DNA of 64,000 bases. It comes from Holdemania massiliensis AP2. Lineage in GTDB: Bacteria > Bacillota_I > Bacilli_A > Erysipelotrichales > Erysipelotrichaceae. Position 1 is the stretch's first letter; every line of letters begins with the position of its first letter. The notes beneath the pieces were generated by a model, which was not told the DNA's origin, made no database searches, and worked only from the letters and a program-made list of their open reading frames with translations. The position numbers and the translations under genes were made by a program. The stretch is taken from assembly GCF_000327285.1 (NCBI RefSeq), contig NZ_HE998569.1, forward strand, positions 91,278 to 155,277. The letters run 5' to 3'. This document shows, one piece after another, positions 1-11,384 of this stretch.

Positions 1-300
1 TTATATGGGTGTAGAAAGAGATGAGGATCAAGTAGTAAGATCCCGTGGTCTCAAAAGGAGGTTCTCATGAAGAAGGTACTTCTCGAATATTAAGCCGTTC
101 CCTTCTTTGTTACCAGAACAAGGAGAGGGAACTGAATCTCAAATTGCAAAAACAAAGAATTAAAAATAGAAAGTGAGTCTGGAGAGGACAGACCAATGGA
201 CAAGAAAAAATAGATTTTCATAACTTGAATTTCAAAAGAAGGTGATAAGCTAGATTTTGAAGATCACAGGAATGAAAAAAATCAGTTTCTAAAAGAAATA
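1..300 (+). repeat. Leader-like repeat, copy 1 (left edge cut by the window)
   Basis: First of four related copies (others start at 2269, 3450 and 4354). Order: a small hairpin around 40-53, an AAGGAGG ribosome site, an 8-codon ORF at 67-93 (MKKVLLEY), a long hairpin at about 96-137, then GGAGAGG and a 5-codon ORF at 196-213 (MDKKK). The long hairpin stem reads GTTCCC/GGGAAC here and GTTTCC/GGAAAC in copy 3, a compensatory change that supports a folded RNA. It lies upstream of the amidohydrolase at 508. Function unknown. Confidence 0.7.
67..93 (+). CDS. Mini-ORF MKKVLLEY in repeat copy 1
   Basis: Eight codons starting with ATG, with GGAGG six bases upstream (57-61). The same ORF occurs in copies 2 and 3 as MKKVLLEF, with mostly third-base changes (AAG/AAA, GTA/GTG, CTT/CTG) plus a conservative Tyr/Phe swap, so the peptide seems to be what is conserved. 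A long hairpin begins three bases after the stop codon. This arrangement resembles attenuator leader peptides, but no known leader is recognised. Confidence 0.5.
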   Translation: MKKVLLEY

Positions 301-507
301 ACAGATTCAGAAAATGAAGTTAGAATTTCACTTTAAGTTATGTCCGCTGTCCAAGGAAAAGCTTAGAGAAATTAGAAACGAAAAGTTAAATGATGAGAGA
401 GAATGGCGATCTGAAGCTGTTCTCTTTTTTCGTTGATGAAGTTGATGAATTTGCTTTGGATTCCGGAAGTTCCGGTCTATAATGAAGGAAAAAGGGAGGG
501 ATTAGTT

Positions 508-2250
508 ATGTTTGATATTCTTATCCGCGGCGGATTGATCGTCGATGGAACAGGGAAGCCAGGCAGAATTGGTGATGTAGGGATAGTTGGAGATCGGATC
601 TGTGCGATCGGAGATCTGAGCCAGGAGTCCGCAAAGCAGGAAATTCTGGCAGAAGGCAAAGTGATCACACCGGGTTTTATTGATCCGCATTCTCATTCTG
701 ATTTATCTGTTTTATTTCAGCCGTCGATGACGAATTATCTGATGCAAGGCGTGACGACCGTGGTGGGAGGCAACTGCGGACATTCGTATGGTCCGGTGGG
801 GGATGAGCTGTACCGCAGCGCGATTATTGATCCCAAGGTGGCTTTTCAGGCAGAACCTTCCTATTTTACAATGACAGCGCTGCTTTTGCCGAAAGAAAAA
901 GCGGTGAAGGCCTTAAAAGAACAATATGGCATTGATATGGACTGGCATTCATTCAAGGAATATCTGGACAAATGTGATGAGCAGCCGCTGGATGGCAACA
1001 TCGCTTCTTTAGCGGGTTACAGTGCGATCCGCGGAACAGTTATGGGTATGGACTGCTGCCGAGAGGCCACGGAAGAAGAAATCGTAAAAATGGAAGAATT
1101 AACTCGTCAATGTTTGGAAGACGGAGCTTTCGGTTTATCAACCGGAACGGATCCGCAATATGTCCCAGGACCGTTTGCGACATTTGATGAAACGGTCAGA
1201 ATGCTGAAAATAGTCAAGGAATATGACGGGATATTTGCTTCGCACACCCGCAACACTGACAGTGAGGGCAAACCTGACCGCATGGGCGGTTATGAGGATA
1301 TGCTGAAACAGGCCATGGCTGCCGGCGTGCGCGCCAATGTTTCGCATGTGCATACGCTGGGCATGGGTGTTGATGAAAAGACAAATGCAGAAGCGGCGCG
1401 GAAAACACTGGCTTATTTTGAAGAGATGGAAAAGCAGGGCTGTGATCTCAGCTATGATGTGATTCCTTCCCCTTACAGCATGGATATGACTGTACCCTAT
1501 TTTGCGACATTTCTGCGACCGTTTGTCTTAATGAGCGGCAGCCGTCAGCATCTGGCAGAAAATTTCAAAGTTCCGGATTTCCGCAAAATGATCCACACCG
1601 TCGTGGAAGCCGGTCATTATCCATTTTTGGATCATCGGAATCTGATGAGCAGTATATATCCGATCCTGACGATTTCTCGGCATGAAAACGCTGCGCACAT
1701 CGGAAAGAATCTCTATGCTTATGCCGAAGAACGAAAGCAGAATCCGCTGGATCTGGTGATGGATTTGTTTGCGGAAGACTGCGATATGGGGGCTGAAATG
1801 GCGATGCCGGGAGCTGTCGAATCCAATGATATCCTGTGCATGCACCGTCTTGCGATGCCTTGCTCAGATGGCTTTACCGGAGATAAAACCATGAACTTTG
1901 GATTAAATGAAGATATTCAGATGACCCCGAATCCGATGAATTTCAGCTTTATCATCCGTTATTTGACGCGTTATCAGAAGCAGCTGCCGCTGGAAGAATT
2001 GATACGCAGAATCACGCAGAAACCAGCCGAACGTTTTGGTATTGAAAAACGGGGAGTGCTTGAAACCGGCGCTTATGCAGATATTGTGATTCTGGATCGG
2101 GAACAGCTGCACAGCTATGATCGGGATGCAGATGTCTTTCAATATCCGGAAGGCATTGATTATGTTCTGGTCAACGGCGTTGTGACGATTGATCATAAGC
2201 ACCATACGCAGACGGCGGCTGGACGGATGTTAAGGAAGAACCGACAATAA
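508..2250 (+). CDS. N-acyl-D-amino-acid deacylase family amidohydrolase
   Basis: A 580-aa cytosolic metal-dependent hydrolase of the D-aminoacylase / N-acyl-D-glutamate deacylase branch of the amidohydrolase superfamily. The N-terminal beta domain opens with DILIRGGLIVDGTG; the metal motif PGFIDPHSHSD has His61 and His63; the C-terminal KPAERFGIEKRGVLETGAYAD segment is the usual family ending. Expected reaction: removal of an N-acyl group from a D-amino acid, or hydrolysis of a related cyclic amide. ATG at 508 is chosen because GGGAGGG lies eight bases upstream and the homologous domain begins there; an in-frame ATG at 433 has no good site. Repeat copy 1 precedes it and copy 2 follows. Exact substrate is not readable from sequence. 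Confidence 0.85.
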   Translation: MFDILIRGGLIVDGTGKPGRIGDVGIVGDRICAIGDLSQESAKQEILAEGKVITPGFIDPHSHSDLSVLFQPSMTNYLMQGVTTVVGGNCGHSYGPVGDELYRSAIIDPKVAFQAEPSYFTMTALLLPKEKAVKALKEQYGIDMDWHSFKEYLDKCDEQPLDGNIASLAGYSAIRGTVMGMDCCREATEEEIVKMEELTRQCLEDGAFGLSTGTDPQYVPGPFATFDETVRMLKIVKEYDGIFASHTRNTDSEGKPDRMGGYEDMLKQAMAAGVRANVSHVHTLGMGVDEKTNAEAARKTLAYFEEMEKQGCDLSYDVIPSPYSMDMTVPYFATFLRPFVLMSGSRQHLAENFKVPDFRKMIHTVVEAGHYPFLDHRNLMSSIYPILTISRHENAAHIGKNLYAYAEERKQNPLDLVMDLFAEDCDMGAEMAMPGAVESNDILCMHRLAMPCSDGFTGDKTMNFGLNEDIQMTPNPMNFSFIIRYLTRYQKQLPLEELIRRITQKPAERFGIEKRGVLETGAYADIVILDREQLHSYDRDADVFQYPEGIDYVLVNGVVTIDHKHHTQTAAGRMLRKNRQ

Positions 2251-2252
2251 AA

Positions 2253-2280
2253 GGCAGCCTGCTTCGCTGCCCTCGATACT
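2253..2280 (+). terminator. Weak hairpin after the amidohydrolase
   Basis: GGCAGC pairs with GCTGCC across a seven-base loop directly after the stop codon. The following bases are only moderately T-rich, so terminator function is uncertain. The 3' arm merges with the start of repeat copy 2. Confidence 0.35.
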
Positions 2281-2596
2281 TTAATTCTACGGGAAAAAAT
2301 TTTAAGAAAAACCAGACTAATCGTTTATGATATATAAAGAAAGCGAAGAGGATCAAGCAGAAAGATCCGCTCGATCTCACAGGAGATTCTCATGAAAAAG
2401 GTGCTGCTCGAATTTTAAGCCGTTTCCTTCTTCGTTCTCAGAGTAGGGAAAGGAAATTAAAAAGAAAACACTTGAATTGAATCATAAATAGAAAGTGAGT
2501 CTAAAGAGGGCATACCAATGGACAAGGATAATTAAGACCAGAAGTTTATGCACGTTGCAGAAGATCATAAAAATGATTTTGAGAATAGAGAGAATT
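2269..2596 (+). repeat. Leader-like repeat, copy 2
   Basis: About 330 bp, aligning over its whole length with 3450-3786. It starts GCCCTCGATACTTTAATT, has a TATGAT-like -10 near 2328, the 8-codon ORF MKKVLLEF at 2392-2418 behind ACAGGAG, a hairpin at about 2421-2460, and the 5-codon ORF MDKDN at 2518-2535 behind AAAGAGGG. It ends just upstream of the lipoprotein gene at 2604, so transcripts for that gene would carry it as a leader. Confidence 0.75.
2392..2418 (+). CDS. Mini-ORF MKKVLLEF in repeat copy 2
   Basis: Eight codons with ACAGGAG upstream. Same peptide as copy 3. Immediately followed by the conserved hairpin. Possible leader peptide; no function known. Confidence 0.5.
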   Translation: MKKVLLEF

Positions 2597-2603
2597 ATCA
2601 AAT

Positions 2604-3368
2604 ATGTTAAAACGGATACTTTGGATACTATGTCTAATTTTATTAACAGGATGTGAAAAGCCTGCTGAAATACAACCCTCTATTTCAGCTGAACCTAGGA
2701 TTACTCCTATGCCTTCAATTACTGATAAAACTCCATATGCTTTCCCAAAGGGGAATATCATTTTTAAAGACTTAATTCCCAATAATGTTGTGGCGCTTAC
2801 TTTGCAACAAAGTGATATTGGATCTCATGTCTTTGTGACCCTTAATAAGCAAGCCGCAAAGCAATTTATAGAGTTAATTCAAAATCATAAAATGAGTACG
2901 GATTATGAAATTGTTCATGGTGCCGGAGGCTATAATACTATTATGATGATTACTAATGACGAAAATGAACAATACTTTTATAAAGAAGTTACGAGTGATT
3001 GTACGATTGAAATGAAAGTAAACGGTGATTCTATTTTATATGGTTATCTTCCAAGTCAAGACCCAATTATAGGATCCGCTATGCATCAGTATTTTGACGG
3101 AGTATTAGTTATATTTAAGAATAACAGTGGTGTTTTTAGCCTAGTGCCGCTACTTATTGAGAATGAAAATTATACAATAACAGGAGAATATTATGATGGG
3201 TGGATACCATCCTATAATTCTATAAAGGATTATGACTTTATTTCAGAGGGTTTTACTGCCTATGAGAACGGCCGAGCAATAGAGCGTTTTCCAAATGAAG
3301 TAGGCGAACATTATATTATCCTCGAAAATGAAATTGGGAAATATCAGCTGAAATATTTTGTACAATAA
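2604..3368 (+). CDS. Hypothetical lipoprotein
   Basis: A 254-aa protein with a lipoprotein signal peptide: MLKR, a hydrophobic stretch, then the lipobox LLTGC with the lipidated Cys at about residue 17, followed by a Pro/Ser/Thr-rich linker. The remainder is soluble and extracytoplasmic with many beta-like segments; no catalytic motif or known domain is recognised. Only a weak AGAG ribosome site lies upstream. The gene sits directly after repeat copy 2 and has its own strong terminator, so it is a single transcription unit. It is AT-richer than the flanking enzyme genes. Confidence 0.75.
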   Translation: MLKRILWILCLILLTGCEKPAEIQPSISAEPRITPMPSITDKTPYAFPKGNIIFKDLIPNNVVALTLQQSDIGSHVFVTLNKQAAKQFIELIQNHKMSTDYEIVHGAGGYNTIMMITNDENEQYFYKEVTSDCTIEMKVNGDSILYGYLPSQDPIIGSAMHQYFDGVLVIFKNNSGVFSLVPLLIENENYTITGEYYDGWIPSYNSIKDYDFISEGFTAYENGRAIERFPNEVGEHYIILENEIGKYQLKYFVQ

Positions 3369-3387
3369 ATTTATTGATTGTAATCAA

Positions 3388-3423
3388 AACAGGATACTCA
3401 AAAGCGAGTATTCTGTTTGTTTA
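3388..3423 (+). terminator. Rho-independent terminator after the 2604 lipoprotein
   Basis: A 12-bp stem (AACAGGATACTC with GAGTATTCTGTT, one G-T wobble) and a six-base loop, followed by TGTTT. Confidence 0.8.
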
Positions 3424-3449
3424 AAGATTATATAAATAAGATTTTCTTT

Positions 3450-3786
3450 GCCCTCAATACTTTAATTATACAAGAAAAATTTAAAAAAACAGACTGTTTT
3501 CTAATTCATAATCGTTTATGATATAGATAAAGAAAGAGATGAGGATCAAGCAGAAAGATCCGATCGATCTCACAGGAGGTTCTCATGAAAAAGGTGCTGC
3601 TCGAATTTTAAGTCGTTTCCTTCTTCGTTACCAGAACGGGGAGAGGAAACTGAAAAGAAAATACTTAAATTGAATCATGAATAGAAAGTGAGTCTGGAGA
3701 GGGCATACCAATGGACAAGGATAATTAAGATCAGAAGTACATGCACGTTACAGAAGGTTATAAAAATGATTTTGAAATTAGAGAGC
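3450..3786 (+). repeat. Leader-like repeat, copy 3
   Basis: Best-preserved copy. TATGAT-like -10 near 3521, hairpin AGATC/GATCT, AGGAGG and MKKVLLEF at 3585-3611, long hairpin at about 3615-3651 (outer stem GTTTCC/GGAAAC, inner stem CGTT/AACG), GGAGAGG, and MDKDN at 3711-3728. It ends at the start of the secreted-protein gene at 3796. Confidence 0.75.
3585..3611 (+). CDS. Mini-ORF MKKVLLEF in repeat copy 3
   Basis: Eight codons with a near-perfect CACAGGAGG six bases upstream, which is a stronger ribosome site than most full-length genes nearby have. Followed directly by the conserved hairpin. Possible leader peptide. Confidence 0.5.
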   Translation: MKKVLLEF

Positions 3787-3795
3787 GGGGTAAAT

Positions 3796-4269
3796 ATGAA
3801 GAAAATTTTATTAATGTTTTTACTATTCTCCGTTTCTATTACCAATGTAGGTGCTAATTCTGTCAATGCAAGTTTGTGGAAGAATAATGAGGAATTTTCA
3901 GAAGAAAGCCTAGACTTATTAGCCTACGAGACAGGCGTTGATTCGCCTTATAAAGGACAATCTTTAACATATATTGTTGATAAAAATAACAATATTGTCA
4001 GAATGGAAATACCGGACGGAGATTCTTTGACAGCTGAACCAAGATCGGTTTCGACAATTGCAGTATTTTTGGGAGGAGCCATAGTTGGATATTTAACAAG
4101 TACTGTTATAGATGGGATAGTGATTGCGGTAACAGGAGAATCAGGGGCATTCTGGGTTGCGCAAGCGATCGAAAATGTTTTAAATAAGCCTTATACCGGT
4201 TCAACTACAATTACATGTGACTATTATCCTCCATATTCTCAGGAATATTACTTTTGTATCTACCGATGA
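3796..4269 (+). CDS. Small secreted protein with Gly-rich hydrophobic core
   Basis: A 157-aa protein. Residues 1-25 form a Sec signal peptide (MKKILLMFLLFSVSI, cleavage expected near NSVNA). A polar middle is followed by a hydrophobic Gly-rich segment (GGAIVGYLTSTVIDGIVIAV) and a short Tyr/Pro-rich tail with two Cys. ATG at 3796 is chosen because a normal signal peptide starts there; the upstream in-frame GTG at 3688 lies inside the repeat. The stop overlaps the start of the next ORF by ATGA. The architecture recalls bacteriocin-like or membrane-active secreted proteins, but no family was recognised and the function is inference only. Confidence 0.7.
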   Translation: MKKILLMFLLFSVSITNVGANSVNASLWKNNEEFSEESLDLLAYETGVDSPYKGQSLTYIVDKNNNIVRMEIPDGDSLTAEPRSVSTIAVFLGGAIVGYLTSTVIDGIVIAVTGESGAFWVAQAIENVLNKPYTGSTTITCDYYPPYSQEYYFCIYR

Positions 4270-4355
4270 AAGTAAATAAGAAAATATTCATTTATGGCTT
4301 CATTGTCGGAGTAATCATTTATTTAATCCTTACCGGAGCCGGTTTTCATTTCTGA
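4266..4355 (+). CDS. 29-aa single-span membrane peptide
   Basis: A 29-codon ORF whose ATG overlaps the TGA of the preceding secreted protein, implying translational coupling. It encodes three Lys close to the N-terminus followed by one transmembrane segment (IFIYGFIVGVIIYLILTGAG). Such a pair would fit a secreted peptide and its immunity or anchoring partner, but that is inference. It ends just before repeat copy 4. Confidence 0.5.
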   Translation: MKVNKKIFIYGFIVGVIIYLILTGAGFHF

Positions 4356-4401
4356 ATGAATAGAAAGTGAGTCTGGAGAGGACATACCAATGGACAAGGA
4401 T
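4354..4401 (+). repeat. Leader-like repeat, partial copy 4
   Basis: Only the distal part is present: GAATAGAAAGTGAGTCTGG, GAGAGGACATACC and ATGGACAAGGAT, nearly identical to the matching part of copies 1 and 3. The second mini-ORF is extended here to ten codons (MDKDEEGRSE, 4390-4422). Confidence 0.65.
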
Positions 4402-4532
4402 GAGGAAGGGCGAAGCGAATAAATCAGGTCTTTGGTTTTATTACTATATCAAAAAGAGAAGAAGCGAGGCTTCCAATTCAGGCTTAGCTTGAATTGATAA
4501 CGCTGCATTCTCAGCCAATGAAATAAATAGAG

Positions 4533-4572
4533 AAGACGAAGCAGGTCCATCAGGGCACTTCGTCTTTTATTT
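4533..4572 (+). terminator. Rho-independent terminator
   Basis: AAGACGAAG pairs with CTTCGTCTT across a 16-base loop, followed by TTATTTC. It closes the repeat / secreted-protein region. Confidence 0.65.
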
Positions 4573-6777: not shown

Positions 6778-9360
6778 TTATTGATCCTCATCGGGATCGG
6801 GAAGCAGGGTTTTTAGTTCTTTTAACGGCCGGTGAGGCTCCAAATTTCTTTGTTCCTGCAGGCGATGTTGATGACGCAGCTGATTGACCTGTGCTTCCAG
6901 TTCACGGGAACTGAGCCGCATTGCGCCCTGCCCCAGAATGATCAGCTGTTCCATGCCGTCGGACGTCGCGACGGTCACTTCAAATTGATCGGCAAGCTTA
7001 TGCGTTGCTTTTTCGATATAGGAATCCGCGGTCTGAGACGTTTTCGTATAGACAACATAAAGATTATGCAGCTTTTGAATGGAGCCGGGATTGTCTTTAA
7101 CCTGATAGGCATCAAAGACGATGATCAGGATTCCCGTTCGAGTTCCCTGGAAGCTGGAAAGCCGCTGGATCAGCTGTTCACGGGCTGCCGAAAGATCTGC
7201 CTCAGCCAGGGGAATGAGTTCACTCCAGGAATGAATCATGTTGTAGCCGTCCACTAACAAACATTTTGTCTTGGGCTGCTGCTGCAGAATTTCAACATGC
7301 TCCGGCATTTCCTTGCGCCGGACTGGTGAGTGAACGGCAGCTTTTTCTTTCGGCTTGTGCGTTCGCTCCATGACCCGTTTCAGTTCGGCGTCATCAACCG
7401 TATAACGGTTATGATGATAACCGGAATCGCTGCTGAGAGGGGTCTTCGGATGCCACTGGGCTTCCAGATGCATGTGTTCGCTGACTTCATCATACCGGAC
7501 AAGGAAGCCGGCGCCGTGGCTGCAGAAAATCGAATCGGCAGGAAAATCCAGATCGCCGTCGCAGTCATAACCGATGGCTTCGATTACAGCCTCCTGATCA
7601 GCGCAGGGCTGATAACCATCAAAGGTACAGGTTAAGCGGCCTAAGCCATGGGTGTAAGCGGTCAGTTCCGCCTGGTAATTGCGCATTTTGGCTACTGGAG
7701 CCGTTCCTTCAAGAATTACGGTTTCTTCCCGCGTTTGTGCGATGGACGATTGGGCCTGCATTCTTTCCAAATCAAACATTGCCCGGCTAAGCTGACCCGA
7801 AGGCAGTTCCATCCGAAATTGATAGATGGGCTCCAGCAGCTGACAGGAAACGGAGCGCAGTCCCTGACGCAGAGCACGCAGGGTTGCCTGGCGGAAATCG
7901 CCGCCTTCAGTATGCTTGATATGAGCTTTGCCGGCGATCAAGGTGATTTTGATATCGGTGATCGGCGATCCGGTTAAAACCCCCGGCACTTCCATTTCAT
8001 CCAGACAGTTGAGTACCATTTTCTGCCATGGCAGAGCTAAGAAGTCAACCGGGCAATCCGAAGTAATCTGAATCCCGGAGCCGGGCGGCAGCGGTTCTAA
8101 CAACAGATGAACTTCCGCATAATGGCGCAGCGGTTCATAATGACCAACGCCTTCCACCGGCTCCAGAATCGTTTCTTTATAGTTGATCTTGCCTTCATCC
8201 AGCTCTACATCCAGATGGAAGCGATCACTGATCAGCTGTTTTAGAATTTCAATCTGGACATTGCCCATCATCTGAATGTGAATTTCCTGAGTTGGGGCAT
8301 GAAACTGCAGGTGCAGCTGGGGATCCTCTTCCTCCAGCTGTTTCAGCTGGCGGTACAGGGCAAAGGGATCGCAGCCCTGCGGCGGAATCAGACTGTAGCT
8401 CAGACAGGCCGAAAGAATCGGGGAACGGGCGGGCTGCTCAAAACCCAGGCCATCATGAATTCCCAGCTTCATCGGGCCTTTCAGACAACAGACATGACCG
8501 GCTGACACTTCATTGACCATGGTGAACTGTTCACCTGAATACAGCCGCAGCTGATCGACCTTTTCCCCATTGTCCAGCACCTGCTTGGCTTTGAGGGTCC
8601 CGCCGGTGATTTTGACTTGGGTTAACCGCGTACCCTGACGGTCACGGGACACTTTAAAGACACGGGCTCCAAAGGCTTCGGGATAAATTTTTTCCTGTGT
8701 GTAGGCATCGAGTCCGTCCAGCAAGGCTTCAACCCCCTCGCCTTTAAGCGCGGAACCAAAATAACAGGGAAACAGGGATCGGTCGGCCACGGCGCTCTGG
8801 ATCTGTTTGACGGATAACGTTCCGTTTTCCAGGTAGCTTTCCAGCAGATCATCCCGCTGCATCGCGATGTTTTCCATCTGTTCTTCCACATGCGTAAAAT
8901 CCAAGATCCGCGGATCCAACTGTTTCTGCAGTGCCGTTATGAACGCCGCGGCATCCGTATAGGCGATATCCATCTTGTTGACAAACACAAACGCTGGAAC
9001 ATGATAGGTTTCCAACAGCTTCCAGATCGTGTGCGTGTGCGCCTGAACGCCGTCCATGCCGCTGATCAGAACGACCGCGTAATCGAGCACCTGCAGCGTG
9101 CGTTCCATTTCGGCACTGAAGTCAATATGGCCGGGAGTATCGAGGAGTGTGAATTCGGTCTCTTTCCAGGGGAAACGGGCTTGCTTTAAAAAGATGGTAA
9201 TCCCCCGGCTGCGTTCCTGCCGGTCATAATCCAGAACGGTATCCTGATGATCCACGCGGCCGCGCTTACGAATTTGATGGGATAGATAAAGAAGACTTTC
9301 CGACAGAGTGGTCTTGCCGGCGTCGACGTGCGCCAGGGCGCCAAGAATAATCGATTTCAT
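6778..9360 (-). CDS. TetM/EF-G-like translation GTPase fused to NYN (YacP-like) nuclease domain
   Basis: An 860-aa protein. Residues 1-660 follow EF-G and the ribosomal-protection proteins: P-loop AHVDAGKTT (11-18), RGITI switch I, DTPGH (74-78), NKMD (128-131), then domains II-V. After a short linker, roughly residues 695-835 form a complete NYN/YacP domain (CLLVDGYNMIHSW, LIIVFDAYQV, TADSYIEKATHKL, VATSDG) with the Asp residues expected of a PIN-like RNase. A Tet(M)-type protein is about 640 aa, so the C-terminal 200 residues are an addition. Likely acts on the ribosome, perhaps coupling a stall-release GTPase to RNA cleavage (inference). ATG at 9360 is chosen because the conserved domain starts there; the ribosome site is weak. 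Drug resistance should not be assumed. Confidence 0.85.
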   Translation of the reverse strand: MKSIILGALAHVDAGKTTLSESLLYLSHQIRKRGRVDHQDTVLDYDRQERSRGITIFLKQARFPWKETEFTLLDTPGHIDFSAEMERTLQVLDYAVVLISGMDGVQAHTHTIWKLLETYHVPAFVFVNKMDIAYTDAAAFITALQKQLDPRILDFTHVEEQMENIAMQRDDLLESYLENGTLSVKQIQSAVADRSLFPCYFGSALKGEGVEALLDGLDAYTQEKIYPEAFGARVFKVSRDRQGTRLTQVKITGGTLKAKQVLDNGEKVDQLRLYSGEQFTMVNEVSAGHVCCLKGPMKLGIHDGLGFEQPARSPILSACLSYSLIPPQGCDPFALYRQLKQLEEEDPQLHLQFHAPTQEIHIQMMGNVQIEILKQLISDRFHLDVELDEGKINYKETILEPVEGVGHYEPLRHYAEVHLLLEPLPPGSGIQITSDCPVDFLALPWQKMVLNCLDEMEVPGVLTGSPITDIKITLIAGKAHIKHTEGGDFRQATLRALRQGLRSVSCQLLEPIYQFRMELPSGQLSRAMFDLERMQAQSSIAQTREETVILEGTAPVAKMRNYQAELTAYTHGLGRLTCTFDGYQPCADQEAVIEAIGYDCDGDLDFPADSIFCSHGAGFLVRYDEVSEHMHLEAQWHPKTPLSSDSGYHHNRYTVDDAELKRVMERTHKPKEKAAVHSPVRRKEMPEHVEILQQQPKTKCLLVDGYNMIHSWSELIPLAEADLSAAREQLIQRLSSFQGTRTGILIIVFDAYQVKDNPGSIQKLHNLYVVYTKTSQTADSYIEKATHKLADQFEVTVATSDGMEQLIILGQGAMRLSSRELEAQVNQLRHQHRLQEQRNLEPHRPLKELKTLLPDPDEDQ

Positions 9361-9558
9361 AAGAAAATTGTATTTCACTTTCAGGGATTGTTCAAGTCTT
9401 TTACAGTCAGCAAGGAAAACTGTGTCCATCGTGATGATGGATTTTGAATAAACATCGCAGATCAAGGGCGGCAGTATTTTATTGACAGTTTTGGTTTGCT
9501 CGGGATTAAGCCGGGTGCTTGGGTATGAGAAAAAGTTGACAAATTAAGCGTTAAAGTC

Positions 9559-9588
9559 TTTACAGCACTTAGAAGCGAGGTGTATGAT
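9559..9588 (+). promoter_or_regulatory. Promoter of the ribU riboswitch transcript
   Basis: TTTACA at 9559-9564 and TATGAT at 9583-9588 with an 18-base spacer. Predicted start near 9595, just before the riboswitch. Confidence 0.6.
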
Positions 9589-9608
9589 AAATGTGCATAG
9601 AATAAAAA

Positions 9609-9710
9609 CTTCAGGGGTCGAGTGAAATTCTCTACTGGCGGTATACTCCGCGAACCTTCGGGCCGAACCGGTGCAATTCCGGTAGCAACAGTTAAAGTCT
9701 GGATAAAGAA
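9609..9710 (+). ncRNA. FMN riboswitch (RFN element)
   Basis: Shows the conserved RFN blocks in order: AGGGGTCGAGTGAAATTC, CTACTGGCGGTA, CCGCGA, CCGGTGCAATTCCGGT and CAACAGTTAAAGTCTGGAT. It senses FMN and is followed by a terminator hairpin at 9742-9784, so it should switch off ribU when FMN is plentiful by premature termination. Boundaries are approximate. Confidence 0.95.
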
Positions 9711-9741
9711 GCACATTTTTTGTTTTATCCTTATTGAAAGC

Positions 9742-9784
9742 AAAAAAACGTACCTGAATGATATTTTAGGCACGTTTTTCTTTG
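9742..9784 (+). terminator. Riboswitch-controlled terminator
   Basis: AAAAACGTACCT pairs with AGGCACGTTTTT (internal mismatches) across an A/T-rich loop, running into CTTTG. Its position between the FMN aptamer and the ribU ribosome site is that of an expression-platform terminator. Confidence 0.8.
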
Positions 9785-9801
9785 TTGACAGGAGGGATAA
9801 C

Positions 9802-10443
9802 ATGAGTACAAAGAAAATGACGACCGTGGGGGTACTTTGCGCGATGGCGCTGGCGCTCAATCTGGTCATCCGGTTTCCGATGATTCCGACCGTTTCCTTT
9901 TTAAATTACGATCCGAAGGATGTTGTAATCGTGATCGGCGGTCTGATGTATGGACCGATGACATCGCTGATCATGAGCGCAGTCTGTTCCGGGCTGGAGA
10001 TCTTCTATCGCGGCGGCACGCCGCTGGACGTGGTAATGAACATGATTTCAACATGCGCGTTCGCCTGCACAGCGGCTTGGATCTACAAGCATAACCGGAC
10101 GAAAAACGGCGCGGTATTCGGACTGGCTGCCGGTGTGATCGCTTCAACGGCCAGTATGCTTTTGTGGAATTATATCATCACCCCAATTTATTTTCAGATT
10201 CCCCGCGAAACGGTCGCGATGATGCTGCTGCCGGGATATCTGCCGTTCAATTTGCTGAAAAGCAGTTTAAACGCTGGCTTGGTCTTATTTCTATATAAGC
10301 CGGTTGCGACGATTCTGCGCCGCTCCAGTCTGGCTGAGAAAAAAGTGTATGAGGAAAAACGCAGCCGGGGCATGGTGTTGTTGGGATTTTTCATCGCTTT
10401 GACCGCAATCTGCGTGACATTGGCCCTGCAGGGATGGATTTAA
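9802..10443 (+). CDS. ribU: Riboflavin ECF transporter S component RibU
   Basis: A 213-aa integral membrane protein with about six membrane spans; LNYDPKDVVIVIGGLMYGP and the following Gly/Ser-rich segments match the RibU family. It captures riboflavin (or FMN) and works with the shared ECF T component and two ATPases encoded elsewhere. Start at 9802 has GGAGGG seven bases upstream. The FMN riboswitch directly upstream independently supports the substrate. A flavin-binding PNPOx-like gene and its decayed copy follow. Confidence 0.93.
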   Translation: MSTKKMTTVGVLCAMALALNLVIRFPMIPTVSFLNYDPKDVVIVIGGLMYGPMTSLIMSAVCSGLEIFYRGGTPLDVVMNMISTCAFACTAAWIYKHNRTKNGAVFGLAAGVIASTASMLLWNYIITPIYFQIPRETVAMMLLPGYLPFNLLKSSLNAGLVLFLYKPVATILRRSSLAEKKVYEEKRSRGMVLLGFFIALTAICVTLALQGWI

Positions 10444-10456
10444 GGAGGCAAGGTCT

Positions 10457-10850
10457 ATGGAAAAATAAAGCATGGTCCTTGAAGAAATAAACGGATTTTG
10501 TGGGCAAAGTTGAATCAACGGAAAATTATAGCGCGGCCTAACTGCATGGACAACCAGCCGTACGCTATGTCAGCTGTCTGTTCTATAACGAAAAGATATT
10601 TTTCAAAACGGATAAGAATTTTCGCAAGACCCGGCAGCTGCTCCGCAATCCGCATATAGCCGTATGTACGTGCAATAGAAGGCAAAGCGGAAAACAGAGG
10701 ATTCATGATCAATGTCCGGGACGGATGTTTCAACCTATGTATAAGCAAACTTTGCGGCAGAGTTACCCTGCGTATTTGCATGAGGAAAATGAGATTCTGA
10801 GTGCGGGCACGCCGGAATTCGTACAGATCTGGGATGAGGATGAACAGTGA
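10457..10850 (+). pseudogene. Decayed copy of the PNPOx-like gene downstream
   Basis: Preceded by GGAGG but stops after three codons. Beyond that, blocks align with the intact gene at 10923: GTCAGCTGTCTGTTCTATAACG, AAGAATTTTCGCAAGAC, ATGTATAAGCAAACTTTG and ATCTGGGATGAGGATGAACA. There are several frameshifts and deletions. It is evidently a tandem duplicate that has decayed well beyond a recent event. Confidence 0.8.
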
Positions 10851-10922
10851 CGGGCATTTCAGATTTCCTCACCCATTCGATGATTTATCAGCTCTATGAT
10901 CAACGTTAAAGGAGAGAAAAAA

Positions 10923-11384
10923 ATGGAATTGAAAGAAGCAAAACAGCGGTTTTTTAATCAGCTAGGGCAGTGGAAAATTATGGCCTTGGGCAGCAGCGTT
11001 AACGATTATGTTATGGTCCGCAATGTCAGCTGTCTGTTCTATAACGAGAAGATTTATTTTAAGACCGACAAAAACTTCCGCAAGACACAGCAGTTGTTTC
11101 AAAATCCGCGGGTTGCGCTGTGCTGCGGCGGGGTTCAGGTGGAGGGGATTGCTCTCAACAAAGGCCTGGTGATTGACGAGCCGGGGCGAACGTTTGAAAC
11201 GCTGTATAAGCAGTACCTGTGGGGCAGCTACAACGCGTATTCGCATGAAGAAGATGAGATTTTGATCGAGGTTACGCCGAAGTTTGTAGAGATCTGGGAT
11301 ACCGATGAAGATAACTACGCGTTTCAGATTTTTATTGATTTTGATCAGAAAACAGCTGAAGTTGTCAGCTATGATAAAAAGTAA
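10923..11384 (+). CDS. Pyridoxamine 5'-phosphate oxidase-like flavin-binding protein
   Basis: A 153-aa cytosolic split-barrel protein of the PNPOx-like superfamily: MALGSSVNDYVMVRNVSCLFY, YFKTDKNFRKTQQLFQNPRVALCCGG and PKFVEIWD segments follow the fold, in which a dimer binds FMN or F420. Its position after an FMN riboswitch and ribU is consistent with a flavin cofactor, although an intergenic region separates them. Start has GGAG about eight bases upstream. Reaction unknown. Confidence 0.8.
   Translation: MELKEAKQRFFNQLGQWKIMALGSSVNDYVMVRNVSCLFYNEKIYFKTDKNFRKTQQLFQNPRVALCCGGVQVEGIALNKGLVIDEPGRTFETLYKQYLWGSYNAYSHEEDEILIEVTPKFVEIWDTDEDNYAFQIFIDFDQKTAEVVSYDKK

Follow-up and report, generated by a model that had tools for sequence, protein, structure and literature searches.

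The left end of a 64,000-nt stretch of the genome of Holdemania massiliensis AP2 (NZ_HE998569.1, positions 91,278–155,277; hereafter the window) carries a cluster of repeats at positions 3–4571, each built around two very short open reading frames (ORF1 and ORF2) and a hairpin, and the locus raises the question whether such a repeat is the leader of the gene behind it, an RNA gene in its own right, or junk. A preliminary description had counted three long copies and a partial one and had taken them for a conserved attenuator-like or small-RNA family. The repeats were confirmed both in the sequence and with the covariance model R1, built from 13 copies, which scored copies 1 to 4 at 147.7, 138.5, 157.8 and 44.1 bits, respectively, the last being a 3' remnant. 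Copies 2 and 3 are 90% identical over 263 nt, and a search of the whole genome (3.8 Mb) found only these four copies in a single cluster.

The covariance-model search of related genomes, proposed along with that description, located the element in other genomes of the family. By DNA search it was present in four of four Holdemania genomes (Holdemania filiformis DSM 12042 and an uncultured Holdemania are among the relatives in this genus), with traces in many members of the Erysipelotrichaceae. R1 matched 62 of 196 genomes of this family, while a second model, R2, built from 60 copies, matched 83 of 236 genomes of the order, belonging to 18 of 74 genera, all within the Erysipelotrichaceae; about 11 of these genera are carriers beyond doubt, and the E-values went down to 1e-29. 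Named carriers are Holdemania, Traorella massiliensis, Anaerorhabdus furcosa, Lactimicrobium massiliense and isolate OH741_COT-311, together with many metagenome-assembled genomes of Solobacterium or Erysipelotrichaceae. In 198 genomes of the class, only chance-level matches (E >= 2e-4) were obtained outside the family, and the best of them, in G336, sits inside a frame that by eye reads as GyrB-like coding. A known Rfam RNA was rejected, none of the 4227 families giving a near-threshold match to the window copies or to 10 homologous loci, and the literature yielded neither the six commonest forms of the ORF1 peptide nor a report of the element. The element is a previously undescribed RNA gene family confined to the Erysipelotrichaceae; its presence in other genomes, the synonymous changes in the peptide and the covarying stem bear out the earlier preference for a conserved small-RNA family over junk.

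Up to seven copies were found in some genomes, and genes have been inserted beside the Holdemania copies, which would suit a mobile or selfish repeat with its own promoters. We consider this highly improbable, as most genomes of one large genus have a single copy, no transposase was seen alongside the element, and it is under coding and pairing constraints. Moreover, several copies in g32, g48 and g18 adjoin the same prfB, NUDIX or M24-peptidase genes, and therefore the locus is old and vertical at least there. A phage, plasmid or viral origin was rejected, with no matches in IMG/VR, phages or plasmids.

The first of the two reading frames behaves as a coding sequence. ORF1 reads MK(K/E)(V/I)L(L/K)(E/N)(Y/F/I) and has 8 or, less often, 9 codons in all 79 copies (55 distinct sequences), its Shine-Dalgarno (SD) sequence being enclosed in a stem in many of them (GUACC-AGGA-GGUAC in L080). 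The entropy was highest at third codon positions (1.09, compared to 0.83 at first and 0.32 at second positions), and all six leucine codons are used for Leu-5; the amino-acid pattern is partly fixed by the search expression, while the synonymous variation is not. With this third-base pattern, fixed length and leucine codon usage, ORF1 is a conserved coding short ORF with an SD, as leader peptides are. The MKKVLLEF/Y peptides noted earlier are present in the window, although their being strongly translated is a prediction only. Codon 3 is AAG, GAG or AGG in 55/55 distinct sequences and never AAA or GAA, while codon 2 is AAA as often as AAG; the SD-like AGG kept in this way inside the ORF could be an internal SD-like signal or a structural constraint.

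The conserved peptide sequence of ORF1, its synonymous changes and its fixed length would also be expected if the formyl octapeptide MKxVLLEY itself mattered as a signal, a modified peptide or a small inhibitor, with the RNA structure only setting its dosage and stability; it would then rank among the shortest conserved bacterial genes. In L169, L176 and L177 the unit of ORF1 and hairpin is repeated three or four times in tandem; these arrays keep the peptide (MKKVLLNY, MKEVLLNY, MKEVLLEF) and would raise the dose. We regard this explanation as unlikely: the neighbouring genes encode no exporter or modifying enzyme that accompanies the element, and the covarying pairing and conserved second start described below would be left unexplained. 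In the arrays, in the cases read, a loop matching the bases just before the second SD is present only in the last unit.

Hairpin 1 begins 0–6 nt past the ORF1 stop, at 3 nt in most genera. The compensatory change in its stem, reported from the window copies, is real and one of very many: across 60 copies all 13 of the 13 pairs are doubly changed and 91.8% of the cells are paired, the covariation score of the whole structure being 0.52 against 0.19 after shuffling. The full-length copy 1 and L080 fold better than their shuffles (z = -4.7 and -4.3), while copy 3 folded alone is unremarkable (z = -0.3), and therefore the structural claim rests on covariation and not on energy.

A second pairing, absent from the preliminary description, connects the hairpin 1 loop to the start of ORF2. 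The region upstream of ORF2 consists of a spacer, AGAAAGUG, UCUG(N), the second SD (GAGG) and then ACC-RAUGG, and the loop is complementary to the UCUGN immediately 5' of this SD. Loop and partner are CCAGA/UCUGG in Holdemania, ACAGA/UCUGU in Traorella and others, (G)CAGA/UCUGC with up to 8 bp in the large genus g32, UGUAGA/UCUACA in g48 and g18, and AACAC/GUGUU, UCAGACA/UGUCUGA and GACAAA/UUUGUG in the single cases L088, L108 and L105, respectively. In a permutation test with one copy per lineage (14 lineages), true partners had a mean duplex energy of -7.8 kcal/mol against -4.9 +/- 0.5 for permuted ones, and none of 100,000 permutations was as good. In register 82% of the cells are paired, in contrast to 22–43% after sliding by 1–3 columns, and the column pair 78/264 is GC 22 times, AU 11 times, CG 7 times and UA once. 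ORF2 itself has 2–11 codons, usually starting with MD; the MDK(D/K)(N/K) peptide is indeed found in the window, but outside the genus it is not conserved and only the ribosome-binding site and start, ACC-RAUGG, are kept.

Instead of the loop, UCUG can pair with a CAGAC ahead of AUGG, forming the local hairpin 2 (GUCUGC..GCAGAC), and by their sequences the two pairings appear to be alternative states of the region around the second SD, each excluding the other. Several observations weigh against such a switch. The bases of the loop pairing barely vary except at two positions, which carry much of its covariation support; some carriers (the g21 copies, and Holdemania copies 2 and 3 with CAUACC) no longer have hairpin 2, while the loop pairing persists in most of them; and the Traorella paralogues and g11 copies agree badly with the rules for ORF1 or the pairing. 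Because hairpin 2 is missing in lineages that keep the loop pairing, the evidence for the loop pairing is the stronger, and the model stands on firmer ground with the pairing than with the competition. The Traorella sequences concerned (L092, L094, L095, L099) are divergent paralogues with an altered loop and an ORF1 reading MKEVLKFI or longer (e.g., MKEVLKLIIFVSCIG), in which the divergent promoter described below was not recognised.

The strength of both SDs, the very short ORFs with immediate stops and the SD-like codons 2–4 of ORF1, in which codon 3 always ends in G, could also mean that the mini-ORFs trap initiating ribosomes or 30S subunits, or deplete free tRNA or peptidyl-tRNA hydrolase (the minigene effect), the structure stabilising the RNA. 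Such a decoy would need neither a conserved peptide nor a covarying loop pairing, and we hold it to be improbable. A decoy sequestering CsrA/RsmA through GGA in hairpin loops was rejected, since CsrA (PF02599) was absent from 20/20 genomes, 15 of them carriers, while the controls were detected.

Most copies end on their own. An intrinsic terminator was predicted in 41/59 copies, usually 75–245 nt past ORF2, compared to 12/59 reversed controls, and unrelated genes follow, which in several lineages lie on the opposite strand (ProC, HAD, PHP, ABC_trans_CmpB, RpsD (ribosomal protein S4), DUF1275). The element is therefore a stand-alone RNA and not the leader of one gene class, for which a constant same-strand downstream gene would be expected. 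Counting orientations by the longest-ORF rule gives unreliable results in genomes rich in G+C (e.g., L075), so that this argument rests on the Pfam-supported neighbours. The term attenuator-like holds for the architecture, with a mini-ORF, a hairpin and a putative competing pairing before the second start, but not for a family-wide attenuation of the downstream gene. That the RNA is a leader controlling the adjacent gene in cis has in its favour the likeness to erm-type leaders and copies 2 and 3 of the window, which lack terminators and lie some 70 nt upstream of secreted-protein genes; considering the neighbours and terminators elsewhere, there is little chance of this, and at best it would be a derived use in Holdemania. 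Copy 1 also precedes a gene (ATG at 508), as had been stated for copies 1–3, but there its predicted terminator intervenes.

The 5' part of the element contains a predicted divergent promoter, also not recognised before. From the left it comprises a minus-strand -10 followed by TGTTG(A/G)GG, A/T-rich DNA, AGACT(G), 21 nt and a rightward TATNATATA-like -10; the distance from AACA to AGAC is 37 nt in 28/34 copies and 36–38 nt in all. As far as sequence can tell, the -10s are symmetric about AGACT at a fixed spacing, and the element has a promoter and a terminator of its own, as dual-function small RNAs do. On the leftward side a hairpin with a T-run was found within 60 nt in 16/34 copies but only in 3/34 reversed controls. 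A generic promoter was rejected, the divergent pattern being found almost only at the element. In bidirectional bacterial promoters, pseudo-symmetric DNA drives two mutually exclusive divergent starts (PMC12825309). The element resembles them in its pseudo-symmetric DNA and would have two divergent starts, but differs in that CAACA..TTATA..AGACT (42–43 bp) belongs to the element and is conserved from genus to genus, and that the predicted leftward transcript often meets a terminator within ~30–60 nt. Conserved pairing between the leftward mini-transcript and the rightward RNA was looked for and none was found (p = 0.79). A type I toxin-antitoxin system was rejected: the leftward transcript is divergent, without the conserved pairing of an antisense RNA, and the ORF1 peptide has 8–9 aa of the MKxVLLEY type and is not a hydrophobic membrane peptide of ~20–60 aa. 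Outside the element, a divergent promoter pattern with element-like spacing was seen without a covariance-model match in G121 (contig C41, 12406–12448), possibly a decayed copy.

Conservation, the two covarying pairings, the ORF1 coding pattern and the terminators are established by sequence comparison, and from these we infer transcription, translation, the direction of the switch and its output. The reading we prefer, with about even confidence, is that of a free-standing, ribosome-operated RNA switch of ~300–430 nt. A ribosome would start at the strong SD, read the 8-codon ORF1 and stop 0–6 nt before hairpin 1, where, depending on fast or slow termination or on a stall set by the peptide, it would cover the lower part of the hairpin. 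In the likeliest course, hairpin 1 would be opened by the ribosome that terminates on ORF1, so that its loop could pair ahead of the second SD only while no ribosome occupies ORF1. In the free hairpin the loop (NNCAGA) would pair with UCUGN just 5' of the second SD, excluding hairpin 2, which otherwise would box in this SD and the start. Translation of ORF1 would thereby set 30S loading at the second start (ACC-RAUGG), which would be the read-out, with the 2–11 codons of ORF2 serving as a landing site only. Because there is no constant downstream gene, the output would be in trans or through RNA stability.

Known systems share parts of this scheme. In ErmC/ErmA-type leaders a short ORF is translated first, and access to the second SD depends on a hairpin and a competing pairing. 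The element likewise has a short first ORF and a hairpin, with a putative competing pairing at the second SD, but lacks a conserved gene after the second start, has an ORF2 of 2–11 codons and its own terminator, and forms tandem ORF1-hairpin arrays. Dual-function small RNAs, such as SgrS/SgrT and SR1/SR1P, encode small proteins; free-standing RNA gene, conserved mini-ORF and terminator are common to both, while in the element two ORFs are joined by intramolecular pairing and the peptide has 8 aa, and no homology is claimed. A genome-wide screen of intergenic regions found upstream ORF candidates (e.g., the ilvB and fthC motifs) that precede one constant main ORF (PMC11109978). Conserved start and stop, SD and stems overlapping or adjoining the short ORF are features that they share with the element, which in the terms of that screen is nearer to an 'sORF' motif, plus the long-range pairing (PMC11109978). 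Only tentatively do we propose a new class, i.e., an autonomous translation sensor with one or several mini-genes read by ribosomes, no gene in cis and a divergent mini-transcript competing for RNA polymerase, in which the loop-to-SD pairing would turn the state of the terminating ribosome into the loading or exposure of a second site. With the element, a gut-bacterial family whose RNA biology is hardly studied gains an RNA gene that is conserved and had not been described, and that would represent control in the style of a leader peptide from which the controlled gene is missing; if the model is true, the RNA itself reads out translation as a compact genetic sensor. The central claim is directly testable by compensatory mutants of the loop and its partner.

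The features of the window copies are collected in Table 1. The ~1.8 kb directly left of the window (L009 ~9520–11278) is N-masked in the genome copy, and the promoter of copy 1 is hidden there.

Table 1. Coordinates of the element copies and their parts in the window.
Feature	Position	Strand	Basis
Copy 1, complete predicted RNA gene (match from 3)	1..431	+	covariance model, terminator, full-length fold z = -4.7
Copy 1 ORF1, MKKVLLEY*	67..93	+	sequence
Copy 1 hairpin 1, loop CCAGA at 113–117	97..132	+	covariation, loop pairing
Copy 1 UCUGG, hairpin 1 loop partner and 5' strand of competing hairpin 2	178..182	+	
Copy 1 ORF2, MDKKK*	196..213	+	sequence
Copy 1 predicted intrinsic terminator, GAATGGCGATCTGAAGCTGTTCTCTTTTTT core at 401–430	~395..431	+	
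Copy 2 leftward terminator-like hairpin adjoining divergent -10	2250..2275	-	sequence; homologous arrangement in relatives
Copy 2, loop-partner pairing decayed, without terminator, reads toward gene at 2604	2330..2592	+	
Copy 2 ORF1, MKKVLLEF*	2392..2418	+	sequence
Copy 2 hairpin 1 (weakened)	2422..2457	+	
Copy 2 ORF2, MDKDN*	2518..2535	+	sequence
Copy 3 divergent leftward -10 region, CCCTCAATAC..TTAATTATA on + strand	3451..3470	-	sequence; conserved arrangement
Copy 3 promoter: AGACTGTTTT (3491–3500), AGACT + 21 nt, then TATGAT (3517–3522)	3491..3522	+	sequence; conserved spacing
Copy 3, without terminator, reads into gene at 3796	3523..3785	+	
Copy 3 ORF1, MKKVLLEF*	3585..3611	+	sequence
Copy 3 hairpin 1, loop CCAGA at 3631–3635	3615..3650	+	covariation, loop pairing
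Copy 3 UCUGG, hairpin 1 loop partner	3693..3697	+	
Copy 3 ORF2, MDKDN*	3711..3728	+	sequence
Copy 4 3' remnant: AATAGAAAGTG..TCTGG..SD (model match 4356–4405) and ORF2 MDKDEEGRSE* (4390–4422)	4356..4422	+	
Predicted terminator 3' of copy 4 remnant, homologous to terminator of intact element in G001/G002	4535..4571	+	

Judged by their sequences, copies 2 and 3 and the copy 4 remnant seem to derive from a single ancestral element with two genes inserted or duplicated inside it, an origin which, like the tandem arrays, had gone unnoticed in the preliminary description. The reference for the ancestral state is the intact element of G001/G002, located upstream of a homologous 168-aa gene. A duplicated element start lies ahead of each of the two incoming genes. 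One of them encodes a lipoprotein-like protein of 254 aa, the other a secreted protein of 157 aa accompanied by a 29-aa membrane peptide; a Pfam search found no domain in either of the two larger proteins. Copies 2 and 3 may be derived exceptions, in which the RNA was recruited as a gene leader, probably only here.

Two neighbouring loci deserve mention. The minus-strand gene at 6778–9465 encodes an EF-G/Tet(M)-like translation GTPase with a C-terminal fusion to a YacP-like NYN nuclease (Pfam GTP_EFTU, EFG_III/IV/C, NYN_YacP). In Bacillus, YacP/Rae1 acts as an mRNA endonuclease that depends on the ribosome, and cleavage of a mini-ORF by a Rae1/YacP-type enzyme was considered as a candidate mechanism. 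The 157-aa protein, secreted and with a glycine-rich hydrophobic segment, and the 29-aa membrane peptide that follows it (MKVNKKIFIYGFIVGVIIYLILTGAGFHF) are encoded on the plus strand at 3796–4355, flanked by direct repeats represented by element copies 3 and 4, and from their sequences are possibly a small toxin or bacteriocin-like pair.

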